NCBI GenBank assembly: GCA_026414975.1 | Contig: JAOAHZ010000008.1 | Location: 62,001 to 126,000, forward strand | Length of the DNA stretch: 64,000 nt | Direction: 5' to 3' | Origin: Bacteroidia bacterium | GTDB taxonomy: Bacteria; Bacteroidota; Bacteroidia; SpSt-205 | Shown here: in pieces, positions 1-64,000 of the stretch | Numbering within the stretch: the first letter of the stretch is position 1 | Layout: each line of letters opens with the position of its first letter | The notes under the pieces: generated by a model | Databases searched by the model: none | What the model saw: only the letters and a program-made list of their open reading frames with translations | What the model was told of the DNA's origin: nothing | Made by a program: the position numbers and the translations under genes

Positions 1-2
1 AC

Positions 3-86
3 ACTGGGCAAAGCTACCCATATCAGCTTGAGATAGACCACCATCCTACAGACCCAATGGCGTTGGTTAGCTATCCGTCTGATTGA
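3..86 (+). CDS. Possible C-terminal end of a protein entering from the left (partial)
   Basis: One frame is open from the left edge of the window to a TGA at 84-86. It reads as a plausible C-terminus (TGQSYPYQLEIDHHPTD and about ten more residues). The other two forward frames contain stops in this stretch. It would converge on and overlap the last 16 bp of the TerC gene. The fragment is too short to recognise, and an open frame of 27 codons can occur by chance, so this is only a suggestion. Confidence 0.3.
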   Translation, partial: TGQSYPYQLEIDHHPTDPMALVSYPSD

Positions 87-766
87 GGTGTTTCTCTCAA
101 ACCTGCTCTAAGATTGAGTAGCTCCACCCCAAGGGAAAATAGCATGGCAAAGTAAATGTAGCCTTTGGGTATTTCCAATCCTGTTCCTTCGGCTACCAGC
201 GCAAATCCCACGAGCAAAAGAAAAGCAAGGGCTAACATTTTGATGGTAGGGTGTCGCATGATGAAGTTTTGAATGCGTTGGGCTGCAAAAACCATAAGTA
301 GGAAGGCCGCTCCGATGGCTAATATCGCTATTTCCACCCTTCGGCTCATGCCCACTGCCGTCAGAATAGAATCCGCCGAGAAAACGAAATCTATAACTGC
401 CACCTGAGCCAAAACGCCTGTAGAGGAACCGAGACGCTCTGGACTGCCTTCAGACCGACGATGAATCTCTTTCACAGCTTTGTACAAGAGGAATAGCCCC
501 CCTCCCATCAGGAGAAGCTCGCGCACGCCCACTTCGTGACCCATTATCGTTAGCAAGGTCCGATCTAAGCGAAGGAGTTGGAAAGCCCCCAGCAGCAGAG
601 CCACTCTAAGAAGCGGAGAATAAACCAGCCAAAATCGCCACACCAGCCGCCGACGAGCAGACGGCAAACCCTCCGCCACAATCCCGACAAATATCACATT
701 ATCTATCCCTAAGGCTATCTCCATGAGCAGCAGCGTGATAAAGCTTAGAATTCCTTCACCCCACAT
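71..766 (-). CDS. TerC family integral membrane protein
   Basis: The 231-residue, very hydrophobic protein has about seven membrane segments and the TerC family signature: an acidic ALGIDNVIF motif in the first helix and a second IDFVFSADSILTA motif near residue 125, whose conserved Asp residues are thought to bind metal. Family members are inner-membrane proteins linked to tellurite resistance or manganese export; the substrate cannot be told from sequence. The length is normal for the short TerC form (E. coli YgdQ/YoaE-like core). The start codon is ATG at 766. No exact TAnnTTTG lies next to it. It stands alone, in the same direction as apt but separated from it by 76 bp. Confidence 0.85.
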   Translation of the reverse strand: MWGEGILSFITLLLMEIALGIDNVIFVGIVAEGLPSARRRLVWRFWLVYSPLLRVALLLGAFQLLRLDRTLLTIMGHEVGVRELLLMGGGLFLLYKAVKEIHRRSEGSPERLGSSTGVLAQVAVIDFVFSADSILTAVGMSRRVEIAILAIGAAFLLMVFAAQRIQNFIMRHPTIKMLALAFLLLVGFALVAEGTGLEIPKGYIYFAMLFSLGVELLNLRAGLRETPQSDG

Positions 767-842
767 ACAACGCAGCTAAGGACGGCCAAACGCTTCATCC
801 AAAGGGTTCAAGCGAGATTCCGAAAACTCCACGAAGGAGATT

Positions 843-1379
843 TCAGTTGGGGTAGGAAAGGATATGCACGATAGGCACGCCAAAGGGTTCTAAGGCTTGA
901 CGACCCCCTAAGTTTTCAAGAACAATCAAGAAGGAAAATCCTACTAGGGTAGCCCCGATCTGTTCAACCAGTTTAGCAGCGGCAGCGGCTGTCCCCCCTG
1001 TAGCAAGAAGGTCATCGTGAATCAAAACCCGATCCCCTGGTTGAAGGGCATCTTTGGGTATCTCTACGGTAGCTGAGCCGTACTCTAACTCATAAGATAC
1101 ACTGGCTGCCACTTCTGGGAGCTTACCCTTTTTGCGGACTATGGCAAAGCCTGCCCCAAGCTCAAGAGCAATCATCGGCCCCATCAAGAAGCCTCGGCTT
1201 TCTATACCAACCACCTTCGTTACATCTCGGACACGAAAGTGGCGAGATAACTCCTCTACGCATCGCTCCACGAGCTTTGGCTTGAGAAAGATAGGAGATA
1301 TATCCCTAAACAGCACGCCTTTCTGAGGAAAATCTGGTATAGTACGAACGGTCTGTTGAAGCTCTTTTTCTAAAAGCAT
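843..1379 (-). CDS. apt: Adenine phosphoribosyltransferase
   Basis: This enzyme makes AMP from adenine and PRPP in purine salvage. The 178-residue protein carries the PRPP-binding loop VLIHDDLLATGGT near residues 120-132, the FRDISPI motif near the N-terminus and the VGIESRGF motif characteristic of APT. A GTG two codons upstream (1385) is open, but ATG 1379 is preferred because TAACTTTG ends five bases before it. That promoter contains the TAA stop codon of the upstream HhH gene, so apt probably has its own transcript although it looks like the second gene of an operon. Confidence 0.95.
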   Translation of the reverse strand: MLLEKELQQTVRTIPDFPQKGVLFRDISPIFLKPKLVERCVEELSRHFRVRDVTKVVGIESRGFLMGPMIALELGAGFAIVRKKGKLPEVAASVSYELEYGSATVEIPKDALQPGDRVLIHDDLLATGGTAAAAAKLVEQIGATLVGFSFLIVLENLGGRQALEPFGVPIVHILSYPN

Positions 1380-1384
1380 CGGCA

Positions 1385-1392
1385 CAAAGTTA
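1385..1392 (-). promoter_or_regulatory. -7 promoter element TAACTTTG of apt, containing the upstream stop codon
   Basis: On the minus strand the bases read TAACTTTG followed by TGCCG and the ATG of apt. The first three bases (1392-1390) are also the TAA stop codon of the HhH gene. It matches the Bacteroidota consensus TAnnTTTG exactly. Confidence 0.7.
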
Positions 1393-2385
1393 CTCGCCCG
1401 TGAGATACCCCTTAAGGCGATCTTTTAGGGAATCGGGCAGCCAACCTTGCCAGATTTCAGGTGGGATTGGCTCAGGTCCCCAGAGCGTCCGCTCCTGCAC
1501 GAGTCGGCGCGCCAGCTTCCATGAGATGTAAGGGTGGGCCGCTAAAGACTCAACAGGGGCATATCTCAAAGACAAGGGGGGCCGCTTAGGGGGGCCAATA
1601 TACAAGTAGGGTATAGATTTTTGGATAGCCTCTGGGCGAAGGCCCCATATCTCACGAAGCTGCTCTAAAGAGATAAAGTAGCGCAGTTTAGCCCTATATT
1701 TCACAATCCGCTCAGCCGATTTAGTCCCTATACCTGGAAGCTGTTCCAGCTCGGCTGCAGTGGCAGCGTTGAGGTCCAAACGCCAAGGCCCACGCCGCTC
1801 TTTCCCAAAAGAGAGGGAAACACCACCCAACGAGCCGTATATACGAAGCCGATGGCGCTCCAGCGCATGCAGGCCCCGAAATGAGTCTATCTCTGCCCAG
1901 TCCGAAAAACCACCCAACTTATACCGGTACCGGATGAATCTCCCGGCTATAGAGGAACGACATAAAAGCGAGGCAGCAAGCTGGCCGCTGTCCACAGCGT
2001 TTAGATTGAGAGGATGTGTAGGCGGCGATGTTATGGGCCGAGCCTCCACTTCAGCTGCTATAGCTCTCCAATTCAAGCTATCTAAAACAACACGTACCTC
2101 CACAGTGTCCCAAAATCCTCCTAAAGCTCTACGCCAGTACAGAAGGCGATGCACTTTCCACGGCATCATACCAGAAAGGGATAGAAGCTGGAGACTATCG
2201 GCGGCGTTTATATCTACTCGGGGAGCCCCCGGTAAGTCCAATGACCCAGAGCTCCTCAAGCGATAAAGACCAGGCAGACTAAAAAGCAGAACCACCCCAC
2301 TCCAACCTACAAAACTCCATCCGGAGGGTTGACTTCGCAGACGCAGTCTGTGAGAGGCTCGTTTGGAAGGCGATGTCCCTCTCAT
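1390..2385 (-). CDS. ComEA-like protein with repeated helix-hairpin-helix motifs
   Basis: The 331-residue protein has a single hydrophobic segment near residues 23-43, probably a membrane anchor, followed by four degenerate HhH units. They begin VDINAADSLQLL, LNLNAVDSGQLA, LDLNAATAAELEQLPGIG and LSLRYAPVESLA; the third is the best preserved, with the LPGIGxxxAxxI turn. Such motifs bind DNA non-specifically in ComEA and related proteins. Bacteroidota often carry multi-HhH proteins of this type with no proven function; DNA uptake or envelope-associated DNA binding is an inference. A near-consensus CTATTTTG sits five bases before ATG 2385. Confidence 0.75.
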   Translation of the reverse strand: MRGTSPSKRASHRLRLRSQPSGWSFVGWSGVVLLFSLPGLYRLRSSGSLDLPGAPRVDINAADSLQLLSLSGMMPWKVHRLLYWRRALGGFWDTVEVRVVLDSLNWRAIAAEVEARPITSPPTHPLNLNAVDSGQLAASLLCRSSIAGRFIRYRYKLGGFSDWAEIDSFRGLHALERHRLRIYGSLGGVSLSFGKERRGPWRLDLNAATAAELEQLPGIGTKSAERIVKYRAKLRYFISLEQLREIWGLRPEAIQKSIPYLYIGPPKRPPLSLRYAPVESLAAHPYISWKLARRLVQERTLWGPEPIPPEIWQGWLPDSLKDRLKGYLTGE

Positions 2386-2390
2386 GCACT

Positions 2391-2398
2391 CAAAATAG
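2391..2398 (-). promoter_or_regulatory. Degenerate -7 element (CTATTTTG) of the HhH gene
   Basis: It lies five bases before the ATG at 2385, the same geometry as the exact TAnnTTTG elements elsewhere in the window, but one base is missing from the consensus spacing. Confidence 0.4.
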
Positions 2399-2557
2399 TC
2401 ATAAAGACCTTATCTGGCTTGCTAAGAGCTTTCGCGCATGCTGAACCGCCTCCATGCCAACCTGACGAATCACTCAAACGAAGGGGCCAAGCCACCAAAC
2501 GAATCTCCCCCCTCTTGCTCTGTACCGCCTCAGCTTAGTTCTTTCGGTGGTTTTCAG

Positions 2558-2565
2558 TTTATTTG
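2558..2565 (+). promoter_or_regulatory. Degenerate -7 element (TTTATTTG) of the glycine-rich T9SS gene
   Basis: TTTATTTG is followed by CATTG and ATG 2571. One mismatch to TAnnTTTG. The position supports ATG 2571 rather than GTG 2547 as the start. Confidence 0.45.
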
Positions 2566-2570
2566 CATTG

Positions 2571-5500
2571 ATGCGTATCCTCTCTCTCTTGCTGGCTTTC
2601 GTGTGGGCCCAACGTCTCCCAGAATCTGACTGCATAAACGCTATTCCCGTTTGTCAGCAGACTTATACTTACACTAGCTCTCCCCCTGACTATGGACAAC
2701 AGCAAGAGCTGAGCAACAACACGTGTCTCTTGAATAATGAGCAAAAAACCGCCTGGTTTATATTCACCGTTCAGCAGGGCGGGACCTTTGGCTTTACTAT
2801 CAATACAACCTATGACTACGACTTTGCTCTGTGGGATATCACGAATAGCTCCTGCAGCATCGTGGGAAATAGCCAGCCCATTCGGTGCAACTTTTCAGCT
2901 CAAAATGGCAATACAGGACTTGATCCTAATCAGACCGACCCTAATCCACTGAGTTATCCAGCCAGCGATCCGCCCTTCATGCCAGGCCTACAAGTAAACC
3001 CAGGTCAAACTTTTGTTCTCGTAGTTGATAACTACACTCGGGACCAGACAGGCTTCACGATTACCTTTACAGGTACAGCGAACATTTTTGACAATACGCC
3101 TCCTCAGCTCGTATCAGCTCGTCAAGACTGCCAATCCCCTACGCGAATCATTCTGCGCTTCAGCGAGCCTATAGCCTGCAACACAGTCGCTTCCAATGGG
3201 TCTGACTTTCAAATCTCTGGAGGGCTCAACCCTGTGGCAGCGGGGTGCGTAGGAGGGGGGGCTTTTTCTTATGAGGTATTCATAGAGGTGGCTGGGCCCA
3301 TTTCGGGCGGGAGCTATACGATTACGCTGGTAACAGGTTCGGATGGCAATACAGTTGCAGATAAGTGCGGCAACTTCGCTTCATCAGGGCAGACAGTTCA
3401 GGTCAGTCTCGTGGGCAGCCCGACGATGACGATCGCTCCGCGGGAGGTTTGCGCTGGAGGAAGCGTTCAGCTCACGGCGAATATGCTCGGAGGGTTGCCG
3501 CCTGGTGCCACAGCGACTTGGAGTACGGGCGCGACAGGGCTATCTACCACCCATACGCCACCAGCCCCTAATGACTTTGAAAACCCTTTCTGGTATCGTT
3601 ACACTTTGACAATACGAGTGGGAGCCTGTGAATATACCCTCACAGACAGCGTCCGAATCCACCCTATACCCCGAGCCGAGGTATCCCCCCGTCGTCTCTA
3701 TACATGCGGGGGACGACCTGTAGAGCTTACTGGACTTGCATCTGTCTTAGGGGGCACATGGGAGGTCTTACAAGGGGGTAGCTGGACTGGGGTCTCTCCA
3801 CCTTTGCGTTTCCCACCCGGACGCCATGTCTTTAGGTACATATCCCAGGCAGGATGCGCTTCCGATTCCTTTTCCGTAGAGGTCATAGAAGGAACTCAAC
3901 CAGCTGGTGCTTGCAATGTCCAGTATGTAACCCCCACTGGAAGCCCCACTGCACCCGGCACTCAGGCCGAGCCCACTTCTTTAGAAGCAGCCTTAGAGCG
4001 GATTCGTTGTCGCTCAGGCCTAATCAAGCTGGCTCAGGGAACCTATCTTCTCAACCAGACTCTGGCGACTATTACCGATAGCGTCATCTTAGAGGGGGGA
4101 TACGATCCAACGGCAGGCTGGGTAAAGCGATCCACACCGGGTCTTACCGTACTGCGTCGCACCACTCAAAATGTAGAGGGGTGCGCCACCCGAACCCCCC
4201 GCTTAGTAGCCCTTCAAATCCATGGAGCCCGAGCCTTTCGGCTTCAAGACCTGACGATTGAAGTAGAAGATGCTCCGGCCGCCACCGCCACTTGCGCAGA
4301 TGGACGAGGAACCTCTACATATGGGCTTTACCTACGAGACTGTGCCGACTATGAAGTGGTAAGATGTCAAATCATCGCTGGCGATGCAGCCTCTGGGCAA
4401 AATGGAAACGCTGGTACAAACGGCAGGGCGGGGGGTAACGGAAGCTGTGGGGGAACAGGGGCAGCGGCGACTCCTACATTTGGGGTGTGTCTGCCACCTT
4501 TAGGAACACCTCCGCCAGCAAGTGCAGGAGCAGGTGGAGCTGGAGGAAGTAGCCCAGTCGGAGCAGTAGGCGGAGCTGGAGGAAATAGCCAGTACATGAA
4601 TAATGGCTTAGGCGGACAGCCTGGTCAAGGGGTCGCAGGAGGGGTTGGCGGAACCGCAGGGTCCTTGTGTGCTATAGGGCTCATTGGAGGGGGTGCTTGT
4701 GCTTGTACTCAAACTGGACTCCCAGGTGCGCCCTCCGCTGCGGGCGGCGATGGGGCTCCCGGAGCCGATGGACGCGATGGAACCGACGGGGCAAACGGCA
4801 GTGCAGGACAAGTAGTAGAGGGGTTCTGGCGACCTGGATCGCGGGGCGAACGAGGAAATGACGGCTCCCATGGTAGTGGAGGCGGCGGTGGGGGAGGCGG
4901 CGGCGGGGCGCTAAATATCGTGCCCCCAGCTTGCCCTACTATAGGGGCTGGCGGGGGTGGTGGAGGGGGTGGCGGTGAAGCAGGCACCGGCGGCGAAGGA
5001 GGTTCAGGAGGCGGAAGCAGTTATGCTGCTGTTCTCGTAGGCAGCTCTACCGGCAGTTGGCGGCAGTGTTTCCTTGCTGCGGGCAACGCTGGAGCAGGTG
5101 GGCTTGGAGGAAGCGGCGGCCTTGGAGGAGCTGGTGGGCAAGGAGCAGGTCCTTGCCAGCCAGCTGATGGAGGCTGCAACATGGGACGCGGCGGTCGCGG
5201 CGGCAACGGCGGTCGCGGCGGCAACGGCGGTCGCGGCGGTAATGGACAGCCCGGCCAATCCATCGCTTTCGCCGTCCAAGGCCCACCCCCAACCCTCAGC
5301 GAAGTCTCCTTCAATCTCGCCGCTCAACCTACCATAACCGTCGGTTCTGCTACCTGCACTAATGTTCCTATAACCTTCAGCAGCCCTACTGCAGGGAGCT
5401 TCACCGATTTAGGCGCAGGAGCCTCTCCCGCCTCTCTTCCTTCTAACTCAGGCACAGCTCAGTATAACTCTACAGGCCCCAAGGATATCTCTTTCGCAGG

Positions 5501-13111: not shown

Positions 13112-13119
13112 TACCTTTG
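13112..13119 (+). promoter_or_regulatory. -7 element TACCTTTG of the acyl-CoA dehydrogenase gene
   Basis: Exact TAnnTTTG, followed by AAGC and ATG 13124. Predicts a leaderless or nearly leaderless mRNA. Confidence 0.7.
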
Positions 13120-17292: not shown

Positions 17293-17300
17293 CAAAGGTA
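17293..17300 (-). promoter_or_regulatory. -7 element TACCTTTG of the epimerase-glycosyltransferase unit
   Basis: Exact TAnnTTTG, followed by TGGC and ATG 17288 on the minus strand. It decides the start codon. Confidence 0.7.
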
Positions 17301-17763: not shown

Positions 17764-17771
17764 TAACTTTG
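17764..17771 (+). promoter_or_regulatory. -7 element TAACTTTG of the outer-membrane protein gene
   Basis: Exact TAnnTTTG, eight bases before ATG 17780. A GGAGG-like GGGAGG lies upstream of the -7 element, where it would not be in the transcript. Confidence 0.65.
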
Positions 17772-19452: not shown

Positions 19453-19460
19453 CAAAGTTA
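19453..19460 (-). promoter_or_regulatory. -7 element TAACTTTG of the hydroxylase gene
   Basis: Exact TAnnTTTG, four bases (CCCC) before ATG 19448 on the minus strand; it lies in the short gap after the prfB stop codon at 19478. Confidence 0.7.
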
Positions 19461-19477: not shown

Positions 19478-20558
19478 TCAGCTTAGCTGCAGAAGATAGC
19501 TTTTTAGGAAAGGTTCAATCTCTCCATCTAAGACCGCCTGAGCATCGCTGGTTTCATAGTCTGTTCGGAGGTCTTTGACCAGCTTGTAGGGGTGGAGAAC
19601 GTAGCTTCGTATTTGAGAGCCCCATTCAATAGGTCGCTTTTGGGCTTCCAGCTTAGCCCGCTCCTCCTGACGCCTCCGAAGCTCTAACTGATAAAGGCGA
19701 CTTTTGAGGAGTTGGAGAGCTTTTTCCCGGTTCTGATGCTGGGAGCGTTCCTGCTGACAGGTAACCACAATACCTGTCGGTATATGCCGGACCCTAACAG
19801 CGGTTTCCACTTTATTCACATTTTGTCCGCCATGCCCCCCTGCTCGGAACGTGTCCCACTCTAAGTCGTTTGGATCAATCTTAATCTCTATTCGGTCATC
19901 TACCAAAGGGTACACAAATACCCCCGCAAACGAAGTATGCCTACGAGCATTTGCATCAAAAGGCGAAATGCGAACTAAGCGATGGACCCCATTTTCCCCC
20001 TTCAAATACCCATAGGCATAGGGGGCGTCGATTTCTATGGTGATATTCCGATAGCCTGCTCCCTCGCCCAGCAGCTCATCCACGATAGCAGTGGGCCATC
20101 CCTTCTTCTGCGCATACATGGTGTACATCCGAGCCAACATAGCCACCCAGTCCTGAGCCTCGGTACCACCAGCCCCTGCGTTAATCTCTATCACACATCC
20201 ATAAGCATCCTCAGGCGCCGAAAGCATTTTTTGCCACTCTAAGTCAGCCAGAGCTTTCTCTGCTTCACCAAAGGCACTTTCTACTTCTCTTTCCGAGGCC
20301 CCCCCTTCTTTGTAAAGCTCTAAGGCCATCTCGGCCAGCTCCACAGCCGACGATACCTTCTGAAACTTCTCTACCCAGTCGCGTTCGGCCTTGAGCTGGG
20401 CCAAAGTTTTACGCGCTGCCTCAGGGTCATCCCAGAAATCAGGTGCTTGACTTTTCGCTTCCAACGCGTTCACTACAGCTTCTCGCTGAGGAAGGTCAAA
20501 GAAACCTCCTTAGCGCCGAAAGGCGCTCCTTGAGCGTCTTGAGGGCGTCTTGCGTCAT
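19478..20558 (-). CDS. prfB: Peptide chain release factor 2, with programmed +1 frameshift
   Basis: RF2 releases finished proteins at UGA and UAA codons. The main frame alone begins without a proper N-terminus. The true gene starts at ATG 20558 ([20 protein letters not shown], 20 codons), reaches CTT TGA at 20501-20496, and continues after a +1 shift as [15 protein letters not shown], giving a 359-residue protein of normal length. The RF2 stop-recognition SPF motif ([11 protein letters not shown]) and the catalytic GGQ ([14 protein letters not shown]) are present. The shift lets low RF2 raise its own synthesis. TATATTTG lies five bases before the ATG. Confidence 0.95.
20496..20511 (-). promoter_or_regulatory. 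prfB programmed +1 frameshift site
   Basis: The minus strand reads AAGGAGG TTT CTT TGA C. This is the classic arrangement: a strong Shine-Dalgarno-like sequence three bases before CTT, followed by a UGA stop with C as the next base. The in-frame UGA is read by RF2 itself; when RF2 is scarce the ribosome slips from CUU to UUU and continues in the +1 frame. Confidence 0.93.
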
Positions 20559-20563
20559 CGGTG

Positions 20564-20571
20564 CAAATATA
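20564..20571 (-). promoter_or_regulatory. -7 element TATATTTG of prfB
   Basis: Exact TAnnTTTG, followed by CACCG and ATG 20558. Supports the start of the short first frame. Confidence 0.7.
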
Positions 20572-20707: not shown

Positions 20708-20715
20708 TACATTTG
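20708..20715 (+). promoter_or_regulatory. -7 element TACATTTG that selects a GTG start
   Basis: Exact TAnnTTTG, followed by AAGGG and GTG 20721. The usual spacing points to GTG 20721 rather than the upstream GTG 20703, which overlaps the element itself. Confidence 0.65.
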
Positions 20716-20720: not shown

Positions 20721-21602
20721 GTGCGATGGATTATCTGGATGATCCTGCTCTTAGGGCTCATGTACGGGCAGGACAAAACCTCTCAAGAAGGGAGTTACGA
20801 GGAAGATTTTTTAGAAGACATTTTTTCAGAGCCCCCCTTACAAGCCCCAAAGCCCGATACAATCCCCCTTCAAGCAGACAGTTATTCGCTCACAGAGGAT
20901 ACCGTTTTGAATCCACCCAAACCCTTTCCACCCCTGCGCCTCATAGACTCACCTATCCAACGCAGCCTTCCAGTCGGAGGAAATACCCGTATCACCCTCT
21001 CTACCAATCGCCCATTCCTCGTGCAAATCGTACGCCCTAAACTCCAAAATGCTAAGGGATATCCTCTAATCTACGGCTTTGACACCTGGTATTTGTATAT
21101 CGTGAAAGCGGAGCAAGTAAGAGTCCGGGGTAAAACCCTCCAAACCAACGGTCTCCCTGTATATCTCACCATAGTGAGTTCAGCTAAAACCCTAGAGGAT
21201 ATACCAACAGTAGTGGAGAGCACGGCTCTCATGATAAAAGGACTGGTAGATTATGGAGACACAATCGTAAAGCACTTCAAACGAGAGAAGAAGCGCCTCA
21301 AAATAACATTAGACAGCCTTCTGGCGCAACCCATCCCCGACGACGAAATACAAGCAGAGGAGCAAAGGAACCTAATAGAGCGTGTAGCAGACTCTCTAGA
21401 CTATGCGGAAAGCTATTACGAGTTATACCGTAACTTCAAGCGAGCCAAAGCTTCGGAAAAGGCTCTTGTTCAATTCTTTCTTACCTATCCATTCAATCGC
21501 AGCCTAAGCTACTCTATTTACTCAGCACCTTATGCTCTGCCAAGATACGCCCCCCCCAAAGAAGAGTCGCCTCCGCCTATATCTAAGCGCAAGCGGTCGT
21601 AG
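20721..21602 (+). CDS. Secreted protein of unknown function
   Basis: The 293-residue protein begins, from GTG 20721, with a clear signal peptide (MRWIIWMILLLGLMYGQ). Residues about 20-80 are acidic and proline-rich and probably disordered. The core around GNTRITLSTNRPFLVQIVRP and YPLIYGFDTWYLYIVK looks like a small beta domain, followed by a charged helical stretch (VKHFKREKKRLKITLDSLL) and a basic tail. I do not recognise a family. The rhomboid gene follows, but with its own promoter embedded in this gene's stop codon. Confidence 0.7.
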   Translation: MRWIIWMILLLGLMYGQDKTSQEGSYEEDFLEDIFSEPPLQAPKPDTIPLQADSYSLTEDTVLNPPKPFPPLRLIDSPIQRSLPVGGNTRITLSTNRPFLVQIVRPKLQNAKGYPLIYGFDTWYLYIVKAEQVRVRGKTLQTNGLPVYLTIVSSAKTLEDIPTVVESTALMIKGLVDYGDTIVKHFKREKKRLKITLDSLLAQPIPDDEIQAEEQRNLIERVADSLDYAESYYELYRNFKRAKASEKALVQFFLTYPFNRSLSYSIYSAPYALPRYAPPKEESPPPISKRKRS

Positions 21603-21607
21603 ATTTG
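21600..21607 (+). promoter_or_regulatory. -7 element TAGATTTG of the rhomboid gene, containing the upstream stop codon
   Basis: The TAG at 21600-21602 ends the preceding gene and is also the TA of an exact TAnnTTTG; six bases later is ATG 21614. Confidence 0.65.
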
Positions 21608-23961: not shown

Positions 23962-23969
23962 TATATTTG
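23962..23969 (+). promoter_or_regulatory. Promoter of the PorP/SprF gene (TTG ... TATATTTG)
   Basis: Exact TATATTTG with a TTG at 23941-23943, 18 bp upstream, fits the Bacteroidota -33/-7 pair. The start ATG 23988 lies 18 bases downstream, longer than most in the window. Confidence 0.7.
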
Positions 23970-24980: not shown

Positions 24981-24988
24981 TACCTTTG
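24981..24988 (+). promoter_or_regulatory. -7 element TACCTTTG of gldJ
   Basis: Exact TAnnTTTG. ATG 24992 follows after three bases and ATG 24998 after nine; the -7 element does not separate the two. Confidence 0.65.
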
Positions 24989-26444: not shown

Positions 26445-26452
26445 TATTTTTG
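26445..26452 (+). promoter_or_regulatory. -7 element TATTTTTG of the modular secreted protein
   Basis: Exact TAnnTTTG, four bases (CTCT) before ATG 26457. Confidence 0.7.
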
Positions 26453-32212: not shown

Positions 32213-32220
32213 CAAAGATA
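32213..32220 (-). promoter_or_regulatory. -7 element TATCTTTG of the TonB receptor gene
   Basis: Exact TAnnTTTG, 15 bases before ATG 32197 on the minus strand. The rest of the 313-bp divergent gap up to ettA shows nothing recognisable besides the ettA promoter at its other end. Confidence 0.55.
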
Positions 32221-32497: not shown

Positions 32498-32505
32498 TAC
32501 CTTTG
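32498..32505 (+). promoter_or_regulatory. -7 element TACCTTTG of ettA
   Basis: Exact TAnnTTTG, followed by CAGAA and ATG 32511. It supports ATG 32511 over the open ATG at 32448. Confidence 0.7.
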
Positions 32506-35688: not shown

Positions 35689-35696
35689 CAAAGGTA
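35689..35696 (-). promoter_or_regulatory. -7 element TACCTTTG of the TPR gene
   Basis: Exact TAnnTTTG, 26 bases before ATG 35662 on the minus strand, one of the longest leaders among the promoters found here. It lies just after the ftsE stop codon. Confidence 0.6.
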
Positions 35697-38009: not shown

Positions 38010-38017
38010 CAAATATA
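38010..38017 (-). promoter_or_regulatory. -7 element TATATTTG of ALDH-ftsE unit
   Basis: Exact TAnnTTTG, 12 bases before ATG 37997 on the minus strand, with AGGAT in the leader. Confidence 0.6.
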
Positions 38018-38181: not shown

Positions 38182-39369
38182 CTATACTCTTTCTATAAGC
38201 ATACTCACTCCCTGTCCTACGCCGACGCAAAGAGTAACTAGCCCATACCTTTTCCCATACCAATGCAGACTACGGGTCAGCGTCAAGGCCAGTCGGGCAC
38301 CTGTTGCGCCCAATGGATGACCAATAGAAATAGCCCCCCCATGCACATTCAAAGAGGTCTCATCTATGCCCAAAAGCTGTATGCAGGCTAAAACCTGAGC
38401 AGCAAAGGCTTCGTTTAGTTCAATCAGGTCTATATCAGCGAGAGAGAGCTGGAGACGACCAAGGAGCTTCTGAGTAGCTGGAACTGGACCTATACCCATG
38501 AAAGCTGGATCTACCCCAGCGGTCGCAGCTCCAGCGATGCGAGCCAAGGGTGAGAGGCCGTACCTACCTAATGCCTTTTCGCTTGCAAGAAGGAGGACTG
38601 CAGCGCCATCGTTTATCCCAGACGAATTGCCAGCCGTGACGGTCCCTCCTGCACGGAAGGCAGGCTTCAACTTAGCCAGCCTCTCTATAGAAGTATCGGG
38701 TCGCGGCTGTTCATCCTCGTCCATGAAAGTTCCATCAGGAAGAGGTATAGCCACAATCTCCTCTGAGAAAAACCCTTTTTCTTTAGCTGCGGCGTATCGC
38801 TGCTGGGATCGGAGGGCATAAGCGTCCTGAGCCTCTCGGGAAATATGATATCGCTCAGCCACATTCTCTGCTGTCTCTCCCATGCTATAGGGAGGATAAA
38901 GCTCTGCTAATCGTGGATTGACGAATCGCCAGCCGATAGTGGTATCGTAGATTTCGGCTTTTCGGGAAAAAGCGGTCTCGGCTTTAGGAATAACGAAAGG
39001 GGCCCGACTCATGGACTCAACCCCTCCCACTAAGACTACATCTGCTTCACCCACGGTGATGGCCCGAGCCCCTTGGATCACAGCTTCTAGCCCAGATGCA
39101 CAAAGCCGATTGACCGTTACGCCCGGAACCTCCACAGGAAGTCCAGCTAATAAAGCGGCCATGCGAGCTATGTTTCTGTTGTCTTCACCCGCTTGATTGG
39201 CTGCGCCGAGGATAACTTCGTCATAAGCCGAAGGTGGTATCTGAGGAAAAAGCTCCACAACTTGCTTGATCAGATAAGCTATCAAATCATCTGGACGAAG
39301 ACCAGAGAGTTTGCCCCCATATCGCCCAAAAGGGCTGCGCTTACCCGCTACGATATAAGCGGCTCCCAT
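38182..39369 (-). CDS. Acetyl-CoA C-acetyltransferase (thiolase)
   Basis: A 395-residue thiolase. It condenses two acetyl-CoA or cleaves acetoacetyl-CoA; direction depends on metabolism. Motifs: active-site Cys in [28 protein letters not shown], the His in [18 protein letters not shown], and the second Cys in [10 protein letters not shown]. The start is ATG 39369 ([18 protein letters not shown]), which fits the family and has TACCTTTG five bases before it; an extension to 39435 is rejected. It diverges from ruvX with only 55 bp between start codons. It could feed acetoacetyl-CoA to the beta-oxidation genes elsewhere in the window. Confidence 0.93.
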
Positions 39370-39374
39370 ATAGC

Positions 39375-39382
39375 CAAAGGTA
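39375..39382 (-). promoter_or_regulatory. -7 element TACCTTTG of the thiolase gene
   Basis: Exact TAnnTTTG, five bases (GCTAT) before ATG 39369 on the minus strand. It lies 28 bp from the ruvX -7 element facing the other way. Confidence 0.7.
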
Positions 39383-39410
39383 ATAGGTTCGCTGGCTGCC
39401 AAATGGGATG

Positions 39411-39418
39411 TATTTTTG
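39411..39418 (+). promoter_or_regulatory. -7 element TATTTTTG of the ruvX operon
   Basis: Exact TAnnTTTG, six bases before ATG 39425. It rules out the open TTG at 39416, which lies inside the element. Confidence 0.7.
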
Positions 39419-39424
39419 CAGAAT

Positions 39425-39829
39425 ATGGGTCGCATCTTAGCGATTGACTATGGACTCAAGCGAAGTGGACTGGCATGGACAGACCCCACGGGTCGCGTAG
39501 CTCTGCCTTTGGCAGGTGTGGAGACCCCCCAGCTTTGGGATAAGCTAAGCGCTCTCTTACCAGAGGTGGATAAGGTGATCGTAGGTTATCCCCGCCAGCT
39601 CAGCGGAGCTACCACTACAATGACCACCTCCGTAGAACTCTTTTTCAGCGAACTGCGGCGACGATACCCTCACCTATCCGTAGAGTTAGTGGAGGAGCGA
39701 TTGAGTACGTGTGCTGCTCAGTATTATCTTAGGCAGCTTCCCCGCCGGCACCGGCAAAATAAATATACCGCTGATCAGCTTGCAGCGACGATTATCTTAG
39801 AAAGCTACCTTCTGCGCAAAAGGCTATGA
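39425..39829 (+). CDS. ruvX: Putative pre-16S rRNA nuclease / Holliday junction resolvase-like YqgF
   Basis: The 134-residue RNase H-fold protein of the YqgF/RuvX family begins [19 protein letters not shown], with the first catalytic Asp in AIDYG, and has [13 protein letters not shown] with the Glu and the final Asp in [11 protein letters not shown]. coli YqgF matures the 16S rRNA 5' end. It is the first gene of a long operon; its TGA overlaps the ATG of def. Confidence 0.92.
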
Positions 39830-43025: not shown

Positions 43026-43909
43026 CCCGAGCAGGTTTTATTGCTCTCTTGGGCTTTCCTAACGCAGGAAAATCCACCCTACTCAATCGGCTGGTTGGCT
43101 ACCCTCTCTCTGCTATTACTCCTAAGCCTCAGACCACCCGCTTCAGCATACCTGCTATTCTCACGACGAGCGATACACAGTATATCTTTATAGACACACC
43201 GGGCTGGATAGCTCACCCTAAAAACATGTGGCACCGAGCCCTGATGCACCAGAGCCTATCAGCCGCCCGTGACTCAGACGTGCAAGTGTGGGTTCTATCC
43301 CTGACCCAAAACGAGCTTGCCCTGCCCGAACCCATAGAAACTCTGGCTCAGAACTTACCCTATCTTTTGGGAGCTTTCTCTCACGGCGATAAGCTCTCCC
43401 CACCCGACCGTGCTAAACAAATTGCATATATCCAAGACGCTTTATCCAGATTTCCCTTCAAGGGGTGGACCGACGCATCATTAGATCAACCTTTGGACCC
43501 ATTCCTTAAGCTCGTTGCAAGTGGTCTGCCGACAAGTCCTTTTCTTTATCCAGAAGGCGACATAACGATTCTCCCCCTCCGATTCTTTGTGGGGGAAATT
43601 CTACGAGAGGTGCTTTACAGGCACCTTCATGAGGAAATACCTTATGGAGCCGAAGTACAAGTGTCCCAGTATAGTGAGAAAGAAGATCGCGATTACATAG
43701 CAGCGACGATCTATGTTGAAAAGGATTCACATAAGAAGATCCTCATCGGCCAAAATGGACAGATGATTAAGAAAATCGGCACTGAAGCACGAATGAAAAT
43801 AGAAGGGCTCCTTGGAAAGCCTATTTACTTAGACCTGTACGTGAAGGTAGCTCCAAAGTGGCGCCGTTCTCCTCGCCTTCTTCGGAGTTTAGGCTATGGA
43901 ACGTCCTAA
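43022..43909 (+). CDS. era: GTPase Era with an atypical G4 region
   Basis: Era binds 16S rRNA and helps 30S assembly. The 295-residue protein has G1 GFPNAGKSTLLNRL, the switch I Thr in KPQTTRFSI, G3 DTPGW and a C-terminal KH domain with GQNGQMIKKIGTEARMKIE. The G4 NKxD that reads guanine is replaced by SHGDKL near residue 120, and the G5 SAx is not evident. The start is TTG 43022, overlapping the TlpA stop; any later start would lose G1. Its TAA stop is part of the promoter of the next gene. Confidence 0.92.
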   Translation: MTRAGFIALLGFPNAGKSTLLNRLVGYPLSAITPKPQTTRFSIPAILTTSDTQYIFIDTPGWIAHPKNMWHRALMHQSLSAARDSDVQVWVLSLTQNELALPEPIETLAQNLPYLLGAFSHGDKLSPPDRAKQIAYIQDALSRFPFKGWTDASLDQPLDPFLKLVASGLPTSPFLYPEGDITILPLRFFVGEILREVLYRHLHEEIPYGAEVQVSQYSEKEDRDYIAATIYVEKDSHKKILIGQNGQMIKKIGTEARMKIEGLLGKPIYLDLYVKVAPKWRRSPRLLRSLGYGTS

Positions 43910-43914
43910 CTTTG
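43907..43914 (+). promoter_or_regulatory. -7 element TAACTTTG containing the era stop codon
   Basis: The TAA (43907-43909) ends era and begins an exact TAnnTTTG; CAGC and ATG 43919 follow. An internal promoter for the NYN-like-fabI-purB part of the operon. Confidence 0.7.
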
Positions 43915-56012: not shown

Positions 56013-56020
56013 CAAAGATA
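56013..56020 (-). promoter_or_regulatory. -7 element TATCTTTG of the sppA operon
   Basis: Exact TAnnTTTG, four bases (TCCC) before ATG 56008 on the minus strand. Confidence 0.7.
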
Positions 56021-56053
56021 GCGCTCTCTGAGAAAGGATATATAGCAGAAAGG

Positions 56054-57898: not shown

Positions 57899-58009
57899 AT
57901 ATTCTCACGAAAAAACAAAGCTTAGAGGACTTGAAGCAGTGATACTCGGACCTGTGCTCTTATAGAAGAGCTATGAAATGCCGACGATATGGCATAACTT
58001 GCCTGAGCC

Positions 58010-59509: not shown

Positions 59510-59603
59510 CAATCTTGCCAATGTGCGGTTTCTCTTATTTCCTTCCTTACTCGTGATATGCTCCAGTGAGCCACCTCTGATCTTCGGTGTTTTGTAAAGA
59601 CAA

Positions 59604-59633
59604 ACTGGGCTGGCGCTTACGCGCCAGCCCAGT
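59604..59633. terminator. Bidirectional hairpin between convergent OstA-like and T9SS genes
   Basis: A perfect 13-bp stem (ACTGGGCTGGCGC with GCGCCAGCCCAGT) and a TTAC loop lie between two converging stop codons. It can form in either transcript and so could serve both genes. It shares GCTGGCGC with the stem at 14968-15006. Confidence 0.7.
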
Positions 59634-59655
59634 CCGAAGGGGGGAGGTTGCCTTT

Positions 59656-61086
59656 TTAGTGCAGTATCGTAACGTGAAACGCGGCGCGACCCAGCTCACT
59701 ATCCAAGCGAAATAGGTAGCTGCCTGCCGGCACATCCGCTACATCCCACAAGGTTTCTACCACACCAGCTGAAAGGGAACGAGCAGGCCAGCTTTTGACA
59801 AGACGCCCTTCCATAGTGTAGAGAGAACCACGAACTTCGGTGGGCTTAGGCGCCTCAAAGCGCACATGAAAGCACTCGGTAGACGGATTAGGATAAGGCG
59901 TCATTACACTCCATGCATCTCCTCGAATCCAACTCCCCATAGAGAGTGTGTGCTCATACACAATAGGAAACAGAACCCAGTTCAAACCACCTTTGAGAGA
60001 TGGAGGTGAAACAGCATGCATAGGAACCCAATCAGGAAAAACAGGGGCTAGAGACGAAGGATTACTATAGAAGTCTCCTCCAGCTGAGGTCGTATCATAA
60101 AATGCCCATGAAAAAAGACTTCGTCCTATTCGAGTCGTATCTCCATTGAGGCATGGATGATTGGAGAGAACGCCGTTGAATGCAGGACCATAGAAGAAGT
60201 AAATCGTATCAGTAAGCGTGTAAGTGTTGATATTATATCGCTCCGTACCTACGGAGAGGTAGTAAGAGGCAGAGTCTGTGATGTCCAAAGGCGTAGAAAA
60301 GTAAACAAAATCAAAAAATTCAGTGATACTAAAGGAAGAAGCGCTACCTGGCATAGGACACCGGGGACCCATATCACCTTCAAAACCATTAGCTAATCGT
60401 ATATTAGATAGGGGCTTAGAAGCCAAGCGCACAGGTGTGCTACCTGGAATAGTACCTGGACGCGACTGGCTATAAAAAGGGGCTCCCCAAGTGTAGGAAC
60501 GCGCAGGATACACCGCATAAAAGAAGGTGTAGGCTCCATCATTGAGACTATCAGGCACAGGAGTGGCCAAAGATGGGTTACAAGGATTACTGGTGGTTTG
60601 AGATAGGTTGTATAACAAAGCAGCAATGCCTTTTATAGAGATCGTGCGATCCGTGCCGCCCAAGTCAGGTGAGAAATCATACCGCTCAGCAATAGCCCCA
60701 TCATAATATAGCGCTATGCCGAGTGATTGAATGCCGCTGCCCTCAAACTTGAATCGCTCATTCCCTACGATTGCATAGGCCAGAGCGGTCTCAAGGGAAT
60801 CGAAAAAGGCACCTAAACATTGAGCAGGTGGATTAGACCGAGTGTTAGGTCCGACCCCATTGCTGATGAGCGTATCACCAGCATAGTCTGGGTCATTAGT
60901 AGGGGAAGGGACAATAGCAAAGTCCTGATTGGGAAGGAGCCAGCCCAAGCTCTGAGTGCGCATCTGGACTGGCAGATAAAGAGGTCGTGCCTGTCTGATT
61001 GGCCTTGGTTGAGGGAGCTTTAGGAGCTCTACCCCTTGCTGAGCCCAAATAAGGCCCATCGCTACTGCATAAGCGTACACTTTCAT
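59656..61086 (-). CDS. Secreted protein with type A T9SS sorting domain
   Basis: The 476-residue protein starts at ATG 61086 (signal peptide MKVYAYAVAMGLIWAQ); the open TTG at 61092 is rejected. The main body (about 60-390) has many YYDG, FYGP-type aromatic turns and looks like a beta-sheet surface protein; no enzyme family is recognised. The C-terminal ~80 residues are a type A T9SS domain with TPYPNPSTECFHVRF, YTMEGRLVKSW and VPAGSYLFRLDSELG. It should be secreted and possibly attached to the cell surface. Monocistronic. Confidence 0.85.
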   Translation of the reverse strand: MKVYAYAVAMGLIWAQQGVELLKLPQPRPIRQARPLYLPVQMRTQSLGWLLPNQDFAIVPSPTNDPDYAGDTLISNGVGPNTRSNPPAQCLGAFFDSLETALAYAIVGNERFKFEGSGIQSLGIALYYDGAIAERYDFSPDLGGTDRTISIKGIAALLYNLSQTTSNPCNPSLATPVPDSLNDGAYTFFYAVYPARSYTWGAPFYSQSRPGTIPGSTPVRLASKPLSNIRLANGFEGDMGPRCPMPGSASSFSITEFFDFVYFSTPLDITDSASYYLSVGTERYNINTYTLTDTIYFFYGPAFNGVLSNHPCLNGDTTRIGRSLFSWAFYDTTSAGGDFYSNPSSLAPVFPDWVPMHAVSPPSLKGGLNWVLFPIVYEHTLSMGSWIRGDAWSVMTPYPNPSTECFHVRFEAPKPTEVRGSLYTMEGRLVKSWPARSLSAGVVETLWDVADVPAGSYLFRLDSELGRAAFHVTILH

Positions 61087-61094
61087 AGGCAAGA

Positions 61095-61102
61095 CAAAGG
61101 TT
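61095..61102 (-). promoter_or_regulatory. Degenerate -7 element (AACCTTTG) of the T9SS gene
   Basis: Eight bases before ATG 61086 on the minus strand; one mismatch from TAnnTTTG. Confidence 0.4.
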
Positions 61103-61114
61103 GCAATTTTTTCC

Positions 61115-62014
61115 CTATATCAGATGATTCCATATCAGTTCCAGTACCCATGCAAGGAAAGCGACGGGTATTCCTCTACGCCAAGCTATTACAAGCACTT
61201 GGTCGGGACGCCAGCGAGGCCATGCCCATCTTAGAGTCATCTGCAAGAGTACAAGGACCGGAATCCAGAATAAAACCTTCCCTGCCAAAAACACATAAGC
61301 CACCCATATAGCTTGAAGGAGCATTAGGATGTATTCAGCCAGCATAAATAGTCCGAAGCGAATTCCGCTATATTCAGTCAGCACGCCAGCTACCAGTTCG
61401 GACTCAGTCTCGGGTAGATCAAAAGGGGCCCGGTGAGCCACCATAACCCCGGCTAAAAACCATAAAATACCTGCGATAAAGAGGGATGGACTTTGAAGAA
61501 TGCCCCAGATTTGAGTCTGACTATTTACGATTTCTTGCAAATCCAGAGAGCCATAATGTGTAGCCACCGTAAGAATAAGGAGTCCTATAATGAGTTCGTA
61601 AGCTAACAGCAGCGTAAGAAGCCGGTAAGCGCCTAATAGGGCGTATTTACTTCCACTAGACCAACCTCCCAAAAACAAAGCCACTGCTTCCATAGACACA
61701 ATGGAAATGGCAAGCCATAAACCGTATTCATTTCGCAGATGGGGCTCTACGAGAGGAATCCATGGAAGAGCGCCCACTACGGAGAGAAAAGCCATGACGG
61801 GAGCCAGGAGAAAAACTCTCTGGACAGATGGAGCAGGGAGAGCTTCTTCCTTACGCAGAAGCTTAAGGATGTCAGCAAGCGTTTGAAGAATACCGTAGGG
61901 CCCCGTTTCCATCGGGCCTTGGCGGTCTTGGATCCAGGCGGCGAGTTTTCGTTCTACATATACCGCCAATAAACCATAGAGTAAAAGTCCGATAACCCAC
62001 GCTACACCGCTCAC
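61115..62014 (-). CDS. nuoH: NADH-quinone oxidoreductase subunit H
   Basis: The 299-residue membrane subunit of complex I lies at the junction with the peripheral arm and forms the quinone site. It has eight or so membrane segments, the N-terminal YVERKLAAWIQDRQGPMETGPYG, LADILKLLRKE, and the diagnostic FDLPETESELVAG (APFDLPEAE in most NuoH) plus EYSGIRFGLFMLAEY. It begins at GTG 62014, overlapping the comA stop. No other nuo gene is in view. Confidence 0.94.
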   Translation of the reverse strand: MSGVAWVIGLLLYGLLAVYVERKLAAWIQDRQGPMETGPYGILQTLADILKLLRKEEALPAPSVQRVFLLAPVMAFLSVVGALPWIPLVEPHLRNEYGLWLAISIVSMEAVALFLGGWSSGSKYALLGAYRLLTLLLAYELIIGLLILTVATHYGSLDLQEIVNSQTQIWGILQSPSLFIAGILWFLAGVMVAHRAPFDLPETESELVAGVLTEYSGIRFGLFMLAEYILMLLQAIWVAYVFLAGKVLFWIPVLVLLQMTLRWAWPRWRPDQVLVIAWRRGIPVAFLAWVLELIWNHLI

Positions 62015-62781
62015 TCGCGCTGGAGAAAAGTCCAGAAGGTATCCCCCCTCAGACCAAGCCGCATCGTTTCCAAACTAAGTATATCGTCAGGGGCGATATT
62101 GCCAAGATTTACGTTGGACCCGAAACGGCGAATAAACCAGGCTTGCTGACTGCGCTGGGGAGCTTCAAAAATGAGTTTTTCTACGGGAATGGCATGAACT
62201 ATCTCCTCTACGAGACCTTCACGTAGCTCTCCTGTAGAGCGATACATGCCTACGGTGCCACTTTCACGAGCTTCGGCAATGACCCATGCCGACCCTGCCT
62301 CCAGCTCAGCCTGAATAAGCTCTATCCAACGAAAGGGAGGCAGAACTTTCGCTGCATCCTTACTTCCTACCTCTGAAAGTACTAAGTACCCACGCTGTCT
62401 AAAGTCAGCAATCCACCGGCGTTTTAGCTCATGCGGGACCTCTACGCTACCATCCGATACTTCCACTACACGCATGTCGTATGCCTCCAAAAGCGCATAA
62501 AAGTCCGCCTGTACCCCTCTGACATAATGAGCCTCCCAGAGAGTCCCGCCAAAGTAGGGCTCTACTCCCGCCTTTCGGTAGAGCTGGATTTTCTCCTTCA
62601 GAACCCCCGATACCAATGCAGTTGTCCAGCCCAGCTTGACAAAATCTATATAGGGTGCAGCGACGCTGAGCAGATCAGAGACGGCATTCGGGCCCAGCCC
62701 TTTATCCATAACCATCGTGATCCCCTCGCGCCGAGGCTTTGCAGCCCGAGGAGGGAGATTAGGCAGGGGAAAGTTGCCCAT
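62011..62781 (-). CDS. comA: Phosphosulfolactate synthase (ComA family)
   Basis: ComA adds sulfite to phosphoenolpyruvate to form (2R)-phosphosulfolactate, best known in coenzyme M synthesis. The 256-residue protein fits the family: TMVMDKGLG with the catalytic Lys, VDFVKLGWTTAL-like FVKLGWTTALVSG, PYFGGTLWEAHY, VVEVSDGSVEVP and LIFEAPQRSQQAWFI. In Bacteroidota the product could feed sulfolactate or a sulfonolipid route, but no such partner gene is here. It overlaps nuoH (GTGA) and the upstream TPR gene (23 bp). The start is ATG 62781. Confidence 0.88.
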   Translation of the reverse strand: MGNFPLPNLPPRAAKPRREGITMVMDKGLGPNAVSDLLSVAAPYIDFVKLGWTTALVSGVLKEKIQLYRKAGVEPYFGGTLWEAHYVRGVQADFYALLEAYDMRVVEVSDGSVEVPHELKRRWIADFRQRGYLVLSEVGSKDAAKVLPPFRWIELIQAELEAGSAWVIAEARESGTVGMYRSTGELREGLVEEIVHAIPVEKLIFEAPQRSQQAWFIRRFGSNVNLGNIAPDDILSLETMRLGLRGDTFWTFLQRE

Positions 62782-64000
62782 ACCGATGCAAAAGTTTCCA
62801 ATAAGAAAGGGGTAGCATAGCCCCTTGGGTAAGCGTATGGAAGAGCTTAACCTGAGCAGGATTGGCCAACAGAGCTACCTCCAAGCTCAATAGACCCGCC
62901 TCGTATCGCTTATTATGCACAGAGAGAGCGGCGTACCAATAAAAGACCGCTGCCGGTACCGATGCATCCCGCATCTTCAGAAAATGCTCCAGTAAGCGCA
63001 AGGCAAACATCTTGTATCCAGCCAAAAACAACGACCGTACCCATTGTATCCACACATCCGGCTGGTCAGAAAAATGTCGACTTCCATAGGTAATCGCCTT
63101 GCGGAGCATACGAAAGTCCCGTAAATGTAAGGCTCCCAAGAGAATACGCTCTATAGCGTAACGCCGTTCTTTTCTATGCGGCAGAAGGGTCTGGTAATAT
63201 AACGTGGCCTGATCGTATCGTCCTTCCAACCAATGAAAATCGGCAATTTGGCGACGAACTCGTGCTCGATGCATCCCGTACTGGTATAGTCGTTCTACAT
63301 AAGAGCGCATAGCTACCTCGTCGCCCATTCGCTGGTAGTGCTCTAAGAGTTTGGAGAGAATGTAAGGTTGAGTAGGCTGATAATGACGGGCTCGGAGCCA
63401 TTCTCGGAAAGCTCCATTAAGGTCGCCGTGAGACTCATACCATATCGCCCAAAGCTTATGATATTCTGCGTGGGCAGAGGCTGGTATATCCTCCTCTGCA
63501 GCGAGGAGAGGCTCGGCTTCTTGGAGCGCTTGACGAGCCTGAGCGTAGGCAAGCTTATGCAAGTAAAGCCGAGCCAACCCCAACCATAGAGAGAATCGCG
63601 TGGGCTCTATCCATAGCTTCCTTTGAAAGGCATGGATACCCTCTGCACAGTTGCCAGAATGAATGTAGGCCCCTGTGAGAAGTCTCACTATCCGCAGCTC
63701 CTGCCGAGGGATAGCGACACCCCAAGCTCGCCATAGAACAGGGATAGCAGCCGAAAGATCACCCTGGTGAAACAGAGCCTCTCCCAAAAACCAGGCGCCC
63801 CAGCTTCGCCGTCTGTCGTCAGGGTTCTCATCCCACCACAGCTCAAGAAGCTCATGCGCTTCCTCTAAGCGTCTCGCTGCCAGACACACTTCTATTAGGT
63901 GCTGATAGATTTCCGATGTCAGAGGCAACTGCTCAAAAGCTTTCATTCCCTGCACATAGGCTTCCAAATAGCGCTCTTGCCGGTAGGCTAAGAGACTGCG
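62759..64000 (-). CDS. TPR-like repeat protein (partial, runs off the right edge)
   Basis: The frame is open from the right edge of the window to the stop at 62759, at least 413 residues. TPR-like helical pairs run through it: SLWLGLARLYLHKLAYAQARQALQEAE, ILSKLLEHYQRMGDEVAMRSYVERLYQ and HWLEGRYDQATLYYQTL in part. The true start and any signal peptide lie outside the window; a TTG at 63967 is not a credible start because the frame continues upstream (YRQERYLEAY). It overlaps comA by 23 bp, so TPR-comA-nuoH appears to be one operon. Confidence 0.8.
   Translation of the reverse strand, partial: RSLLAYRQERYLEAYVQGMKAFEQLPLTSEIYQHLIEVCLAARRLEEAHELLELWWDENPDDRRRSWGAWFLGEALFHQGDLSAAIPVLWRAWGVAIPRQELRIVRLLTGAYIHSGNCAEGIHAFQRKLWIEPTRFSLWLGLARLYLHKLAYAQARQALQEAEPLLAAEEDIPASAHAEYHKLWAIWYESHGDLNGAFREWLRARHYQPTQPYILSKLLEHYQRMGDEVAMRSYVERLYQYGMHRARVRRQIADFHWLEGRYDQATLYYQTLLPHRKERRYAIERILLGALHLRDFRMLRKAITYGSRHFSDQPDVWIQWVRSLFLAGYKMFALRLLEHFLKMRDASVPAAVFYWYAALSVHNKRYEAGLLSLEVALLANPAQVKLFHTLTQGAMLPLSYWKLLHRYGQLSPA

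Follow-up and report, generated by a model that had tools for sequence, protein, structure and literature searches.

Probable promoter -7 elements sit directly at start codons in a family of Bacteroidota, consistent with widespread leaderless transcripts

Results

In the family of Bacteroidota studied here, promoters very probably place the -7 element TAnnTTTG right at the start codon, and about half of the TU-leading mRNAs would be leaderless or carry leaders of only 0-5 nt. The original prediction, made from a 64-kb stretch of one genome (64,000 nucleotides, hereafter the window), had read such elements as a sign of widespread leaderless transcripts. This interpretation was supported by our analysis, the transcript 5' end being deduced from the position of the element: in a large share of genes the last element of the promoter lies exactly 4 bases upstream of the start codon, and transcription of these genes probably starts at that codon itself.

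Start-adjacent elements in the window

As shown in Table 1, all 19 genes described as having an exact TAnnTTTG upstream were located, 15 with the element close to the start and 4 others. The exact element occurred 46 times on both strands of the window, compared with 30.3 ± 6.5 in dinucleotide shuffles. When starts were called without upstream signals, 11 of 48 window genes had an exact element at a gap of 2-9 nt (gap, the nucleotides between element end and start codon), while shuffled upstream sequence gave a mean of 0.23 (maximum 3 in 2000). The gene caller was simple and some starts were mis-set, such as those of thiolase and gldJ in the window; in its 395-aa reading, the thiolase aligns with thiolase models from their residue 2 onwards. 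The ruvX and thiolase genes are divergent, with starts 55 bp apart.

Table 1 Exact -7 elements upstream of genes in the window, and the prfB frameshift site
Feature	Positions	Strand	Gap (nt)	Gene start and remarks
-7 element TAACTTTG	1385..1392	(-)	5	apt (TIGR01090), ATG at 1379
-7 element TACCTTTG	13112..13119	(+)	4	acyl-CoA dehydrogenase, 13124
-7 element TACCTTTG	17293..17300	(-)	4	GalE-like epimerase, 17288
-7 element TAACTTTG	17764..17771	(+)	8	17780; product matches no known family
-7 element TAACTTTG	19453..19460	(-)	4	OlsC/LpxO-like hydroxylase, 19448
-7 element TATATTTG	20564..20571	(-)	5	prfB (TIGR00020), ATG at 20558
prfB programmed +1 frameshift site AGGAGG TTT CTT TGA	20496..20510	(-)		contains internal Shine-Dalgarno-like hexamer
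-7 element TACATTTG	20708..20715	(+)	5	GTG start, 20721; product matches no known family
-7 element TAGATTTG	21600..21607	(+)	6	rhomboid, 21614
-7 element TACCTTTG	24981..24988	(+)	3	gldJ, 24992
-7 element TATTTTTG	26445..26452	(+)	4	PKD/T9SS-sorted protein, 26457
-7 element TACCTTTG	32498..32505	(+)	5	ettA, 32511
-7 element TACCTTTG	39375..39382	(-)	5	thiolase, 39369
-7 element TATTTTTG	39411..39418	(+)	6	ruvX, 39425
-7 element TAACTTTG	43907..43914	(+)	4	43919, no known family; element overlaps end of upstream gene
-7 element TATCTTTG	56013..56020	(-)	4	sppA, 56008
-7 element TACCTTTG	35689..35696	(-)	2	TPR protein, 35686
-7 element TATATTTG	38010..38017	(-)	12	aldehyde dehydrogenase, 37997; short leader, not leaderless
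-7 element TATCTTTG	32213..32220	(-)	15	32197; short leader
-7 element TATATTTG	23962..23969	(+)	18	PorP/SprF, 23988; leadered

Genome-wide enrichment and spacing

The original prediction depended on enrichment at short distance across the genome, and this was found: TAnnTTTG-N3-7-ATG occurred 435 times in the genome of the window, compared with 61 in the composition control, the highest such ratio among the 396 genomes of the phylum surveyed. At gaps of 2-7 nt, the genome-wide count was 462, compared with 69 in the control. Shuffles, shifted windows and reversed-pattern matches served as controls and ruled out chance or a codon-usage artefact as the source of the enrichment.

The gaps were then read from 707 kb of the window's genome (G000), 440 kb of a closed relative and smaller samples of others. 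With starts set by coding potential alone, 61 genes of G000 had the element at exactly 4 nt, while 8 had it at 3 nt and 12 at 5 nt; the same spike comprised 47 genes in G404 and 17 in G397. Pooling five family samples gave 137 genes at gap 4, compared with about 1.9 per gap across 15-39 nt, and gaps of 5-9 nt were likewise enriched. The spacing had been described as usually 4-6 nt; the short gaps were borne out, but the distribution peaks sharply at 4 nt and trails off to 9 nt, with no broad maximum over 4-6 nt. This tail implies leaders of 1-5 nt in a minority of genes.

A mixture model recovered the consensus T-A-N-N-T-T-T-G and placed a near element at 50% (G000) and 56% (G404) of TU-first genes, compared with 1-1.5% of control positions; over all genes the proportion was 38%. 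On the AT-rich control genomes G238 and G041 the model settled on generic AT-rich patterns; these fits were excluded as estimates, so exact-match histograms were used for these controls.

Promoter identity and the expected transcription start

We infer that these TAnnTTTG copies act as -7 elements in housekeeping promoters of the sigma-ABfr type. In the gap-4 genes, G was disfavoured in the variable bases (14/137 at -10 and 6/137 at -9; TAHHTTTG). Transcription in Flavobacterium johnsoniae begins 4-5 nt past TAnnTTTG (PMC6847099), so with a gap of 4 nt the +1 would fall on the A or G of the start codon. The expected +1 base was a purine in 66% of promoters at gaps of 6-30 nt (79/120, binomial p = 0.001). 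The gap-4 start codons were 103 ATG, 34 GTG and no TTG, and TTG was absent among all near-element genes, compared with 36 of 838 other genes (p = 8e-5). The offset is borrowed from Flavobacterium; if it differed here by 1-2 nt, the message would carry a leader of 1-2 nt rather than being leaderless. As had been remarked for the window, a consistent -33 TTTG was missing: the upstream search found neither positional enrichment nor a spacing preference for it, so promoter strength would depend on the -7 element alone. The -33 TTTG is not evident in F. johnsoniae either (PMC6847099), and its absence is therefore not disqualifying for this promoter class.

Operon position and translation signals

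Exact elements were found at 86 of 267 TU-first genes and 17 of 201 operon-internal genes (p = 2.5e-10), and at a single one of 67 overlapping starts. No enrichment of Shine-Dalgarno (SD) sequences over control positions was seen in any gene class; an SD of at least 5 nt preceded 1 of 113 near-element genes, compared with 3 in control positions. Of the 12 family genomes, 11 encode the protein bS21 (PF01165). Upstream of its gene, rpsU, lies a -7 element 5-6 nt from the start, and the upstream regions of rpsU and rpsR showed no strong SD of the kind usual in other orders. Searches of these genomes for 16S rRNA found no SSU match, though control searches matched. The anti-SD may be intact, as suggested by the AGGAGG that prfB retains at its frameshift site, which has the geometry of E. 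coli prfB.

Conservation in the family

The start-adjacent element was common to all 12 family genomes examined. The family comprises uncultured Bacteroidota with hot-spring relatives. Upstream of ettA, the element was kept at a gap of 4-5 nt in eight relatives, in one of them with a one-base mismatch, while the remaining upstream region had diverged and could not be aligned. When orthologues within the family were paired by their aligned starts, the exact element was retained in 14 of 15 partners.

Discussion

All these results suggested a scheme in which the -7 element has become fixed at a gap of 4 nt, about 12 bp ahead of the start codon, and RNA polymerase would initiate at the first base of ATG or GTG or only a few bases away. 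About half of the TU-leading genes would then give mRNAs that are leaderless or begin with 0-5 nt of leader; in place of a ribosome-binding site, ribosomes would have to recognise a start codon at the 5' terminus by means of initiator tRNA. Operon-internal genes, mostly without the element, probably rely on overlapping stop and start codons (ATGA/TAATG) or on leadered initiation independent of SD.

A competing explanation holds that the messages have ultra-short leaders of 1-5 nt and are not strictly leaderless, with initiation dependent on the 5' end but not on a terminal AUG, because the +1 lies at least 5 nt past the element or wobbles. It would account for the enrichment extending to gaps of 5-9 nt, for the sister-family genome G396, in which the trait is looser and the peak lies at 5-9 nt, and for the 6-nt gap of rpsU, kept in G000 and 4 of the 5 relatives read. 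The dominant mode, however, is confined to one position, 4 nt, and in distant promoters the purine enrichment points to the fifth position after the element as +1, the first base of the start codon at gap 4; we consider this explanation rather unlikely. That TAnnTTTG is not a promoter but acts in the mRNA as a translation-initiation motif (Kozak-like or ribosome-binding) appears very improbable. Its fixed distance to the start codon and the use of SD-independent upstream bases by Bacteroidota (PMC6847099) would fit such a motif, but it is scarce at operon-internal and overlapping starts, which equally need translation signals, and it was rejected on this contrast. Its consensus also equals the established -7 promoter element, down to the scarcity of G at the second variable base, and copies of it are also found farther from starts, for example at PorP.

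The spacing might also be an ordinary property of Bacteroidota, noticed because the element is common, and TAnnTTTG is indeed somewhat over-represented near ATG in many of their genomes relative to the reversed control, by as much as about 2.9-fold if the distant family f26 is set aside. We regard this as hardly credible. The near/far ratio (short-gap versus 12-16 nt counts) was 2.6-5.1 in the family but mostly 0.9-1.9 in the other genomes tested, f26 apart, and in a leadered control genome the nearest element was 16 nt from a start, with a cluster at about 27-28 nt. Published maps show just 3.7-13% very short leaders: about 3.7% leaderless or very short in B. thetaiotaomicron (PMC7366714), 5.5% in F. 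psychrophilum (PMC9723704) and, in F. johnsoniae, 13% of leaders at most 10 nt long (PMC6847099); mean leaders in Bacteroides and Flavobacterium are 33-65 nt (PMC6847099, PMC9723704, PMC7366714). The suspicion that such consistent spacing to the start is unusual thus proved sound, with a strong short-gap bias confined in the phylum survey to the window's family and f26. The latter belongs to another class and had near/far ratios of 2.2-6 in eight genomes, but only about 100-180 near matches per genome; a 215-kb sample of its genome G382 contained 5 genes at gap 4.

The best reading is that this lineage has built a leaderless gene architecture on the sigma-ABfr -7 promoter, comparable to that of Deinococcus-Thermus. 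We lean towards the wider claim that the entire family is leaderless-dominated through the phylum's own -7 promoter, the start codon doubling as transcription start site. Bacteroidota are held to translate leadered mRNAs without SD pairing, and for Flavobacterium leaderless mRNA has been explicitly ruled out as an explanation of SD-independent translation. If about half of the family's leading genes are leaderless, the phylum contains both leadered SD-independent and leaderless solutions, and the sister-family genome, whose gaps of 5-9 nt place it in between, lends itself to comparison when asking how leaderless initiation evolves. In practice, gene finders whose training relied on SD or AT-rich RBS models will set starts wrongly in this family, where the element can serve as the marker of the true start codon. 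Were the leaderless-dominated reading true, SD autoregulation of bS21/bS18 would have been lost, and divergent promoters would be fused into units of about 42 bp that admit one polymerase at a time, because the -33 region of each promoter would fall on the -7 element of the opposite one.

Comparison with known systems

Like the sigma-ABfr promoters of Bacteroides and Flavobacterium, those described here have the -7 consensus, disfavour G in the variable bases and have a weak or absent -33, but here the element abuts the start codon in about half of the leading genes. As in the SD-independent Bacteroidia ribosome with its bS21-sequestered anti-SD (PMC9976891), bS21 is present and starts lack SD enrichment; in other orders, rpsU, rpsR or both have a strong SD for autoregulation (PMC9976891), unlike the arrangement found here. 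Leaderless transcripts are also common in Actinobacteria (Mycobacterium, Streptomyces), with ATG and GTG starts and operon-internal genes initiated differently. Actinobacteria with leaderless genes use SD for their other genes, whereas no gene class is enriched for SD here, and the promoter differs. In the -10-adjacent ORFs and leaderless genes of Deinococcus-Thermus (PMC12340547; PMC3160421), a promoter element likewise stands at fixed spacing directly before starts, at about 30-39% of genes of broad functions and with no need for SD. Their element is of the sigma-70 type TANNNT, whereas here it is the sigma-ABfr TAnnTTTG with a 4-nt gap, in a family whose phylum has ribosomes that skip SD pairing anyway.

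Probable promoter elements lie at a short distance from start codons

The original prediction named 19 genes in the window (C55:62001-126000 of the 2.2-Mb, 58-contig genome G000) with an exact TAnnTTTG, the -7 promoter element, upstream. The element was found on the coding strand in 19/19, and the gap of 3-9 nt between element and start codon claimed for 15 of them was confirmed in 15/15. Family models agreed with the names apt, acyl-CoA dehydrogenase, GalE-like epimerase, rhomboid, GldJ and EttA, and likewise backed thiolase, RuvX, PorP, prfB and sppA. The element-implied thiolase start, 22 codons inside the longest ORF, coincided with the start of the thiolase-model alignment.

Features located in the window
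Feature	Position	Strand	Detail
prfB frameshift site	20496-20510	-	AGGAGG-TTT-CTT-TGA
Thiolase start	39369	-	implied by the element
Compact divergent pair, predicted leaderless	39369-39425	-/+	thiolase (-) / ruvX (+)

The genome-wide distance check suggested with that prediction was performed, and TAnnTTTG-N3-7-ATG occurred 435 times in G000 vs 61 times for the reversed pattern, so that chance was rejected; this ratio was the highest among 396 genomes of the phylum. Gene starts were set by a caller using codon usage and start-codon type only, without upstream sequence. In 707 kb of G000, the gap was 3 nt at 8 genes, 4 nt at 61 and 5 nt at 12, with a falling tail up to 9 nt and background beyond, and the counts for the closed relative G404 were 47 genes (4 nt) and 20 genes (5 nt). 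In a leadered control genome, all elements lay at least 16 nt from the start, and they clustered around 27-28 nt. When five family samples were pooled, 137 genes had a gap of exactly 4 nt vs 1.9 per position at 15-39 nt. A mixture model, in which motif and position were learned freely, recovered T-A-N-N-T-T-T-G with about half of the weight at 4 nt. It placed a near element (gap 2-9 nt) at 38% of all genes in both G000 and G404; for genes leading a transcription unit, the shares were 50% (G000) and 56% (G404). Shifted and shuffled controls gave 0.1-1.5%.

The element is probably a promoter rather than a translation signal

Elements this close to start codons might instead serve translation. 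Exact near elements preceded 86/267 leading genes vs 17/201 operon-internal genes (p = 2.5e-10), and were found at 1/67 starts overlapping the previous stop (ATGA or TAATG). Such rarity at operon-internal and overlapping starts indicated that the element is a promoter, and its role as a translation signal was rejected. In no gene class of G000 did Shine-Dalgarno (SD)-like sequence occur more often before starts than at control positions. Only two genes in 707 kb, at C11:168333 and C11:211275, had a strong SD (AAAGGAGG) at the start; one of them sits 15 nt past TATATTTG, and would therefore have an SD-led short leader.

Predicted transcription start at the start codon

In F. johnsoniae, the final G of the element is at -5 and transcripts start 4-5 nt past the element (PMC6847099). 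Combined with the 4-nt gap, this makes the start codon's first base the predicted +1 of gap-4 genes, and these genes would be leaderless. In promoters with a more distant start codon, the fifth base past the element was a purine in 66% (79/120), compared with 47-54% at the surrounding bases (positions 2-9), which lends independent genomic support to a +1 there. The 137 gap-4 genes started with ATG or GTG and never TTG, as expected if +1 favours a purine. TTG was used by none of the near-element genes vs 36/838 of the others, and the GTG share was somewhat higher at gap 4 (34/137) than at gaps 5-9 (15/110, p = 0.04).

Among sampled relatives, 33 divergent pairs carried near elements on both sides, 19 of them with 31-58 bp between start codons. 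In six of the 33, the back-to-back elements were exactly 18 bp apart; at this spacing, about 42 bp would separate the two predicted +1 positions, and each -33 region would overlie the opposite -7 element. This geometry suggests that polymerases would exclude each other at such pairs.

The short spacing extends through the family

The order comprised 13 genomes, 12 of the window's family and one of its sister family. All 12 family genomes had the trait (near counts 309-516 vs 19-86 in the reversed control; ratio of near to 12-16 nt counts 2.6-5.1). It was weaker in the sister-family genome (331 vs 205; ratio 1.85), where gaps were mostly 5-9 nt rather than 4, so that, judging from this one genome, the tight 4-nt spacing may have arisen at family level by refinement of a leader that was short to begin with. 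Apart from f26, a distant family in another class, the other genomes tested had short-gap and 12-16 nt counts of similar size. The f26 genomes (G382, G136, G113, G144, G101, G105, G027 and G059) showed a strong short-gap bias (ratio 2.2-6) with few sites, and may represent an independent, smaller case.

In eight named relatives, ettA kept its element at a gap of 4-5 nt (the start codon was GTG in one, and the element had a single mismatch in one), although the remaining upstream region was unalignable. Among the few start-aligned orthologue pairs within the family, 14/15 partners kept the element, mostly at the same or a neighbouring gap. The KatS3mg series, to which one relative (MAG KatS3mg025) belongs, includes a MAG described as originating in a Japanese hot spring (PMC12735351); this relative therefore probably has a hot-spring habitat.

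Translation machinery

The family retains bS21 (11/12 genomes) and IF3 (9/12, the misses being less complete genomes), and bS1 was found in 11/11 genomes of the genus; 16S searches of these genomes yielded no match. The canonical programmed frameshift site of prfB, with its internal AGGAGG, is kept, and coexists in G000 with the absence of SD enrichment at start codons. In E. coli, this site works by anti-SD pairing. Its presence would be hard to explain if the anti-SD were missing, and thus points indirectly to one here.

Other Bacteroidia have a strong autoregulatory SD at rpsU and/or rpsR (PMC9976891). In this family, by contrast, rpsU (L111-L115, L167) had a -7 element 5-6 nt from the start, and no strong SD was seen at the rpsR start (L220-L230), so the SD feedback loop appears to be missing. 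The IF3 gene infC (L216-L218) had an apparent GTG start about 7-8 nt past TAnnTTTG in three family genomes.

Comparison with known leaderless lineages

That many genes can be leaderless is well established for Actinobacteria, Deinococcus-Thermus and archaea. When 953 bacterial genomes were surveyed, such genes turned up in 1/37 Bacteroidetes/Chlorobi (2.4%); that survey used Pribnow-like signals only and noted possible underestimation in Bacteroidetes (PMC3160421). In mapped Bacteroidota, very short or leaderless transcripts account for 3.7% in B. thetaiotaomicron (PMC7366714) and 5.5% in F. psychrophilum (PMC9723704), and 13% are at or below 10 nt in F. johnsoniae (PMC6847099). These shares, together with the phylum survey, in which a strong short-gap bias was seen in this family and f26 only, bear out the earlier suspicion that such spacing is unusual for Bacteroidota. 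Among the papers within reach of the literature search, which lacked most subscription journals, none described a Bacteroidota lineage dominated by leaderless genes.
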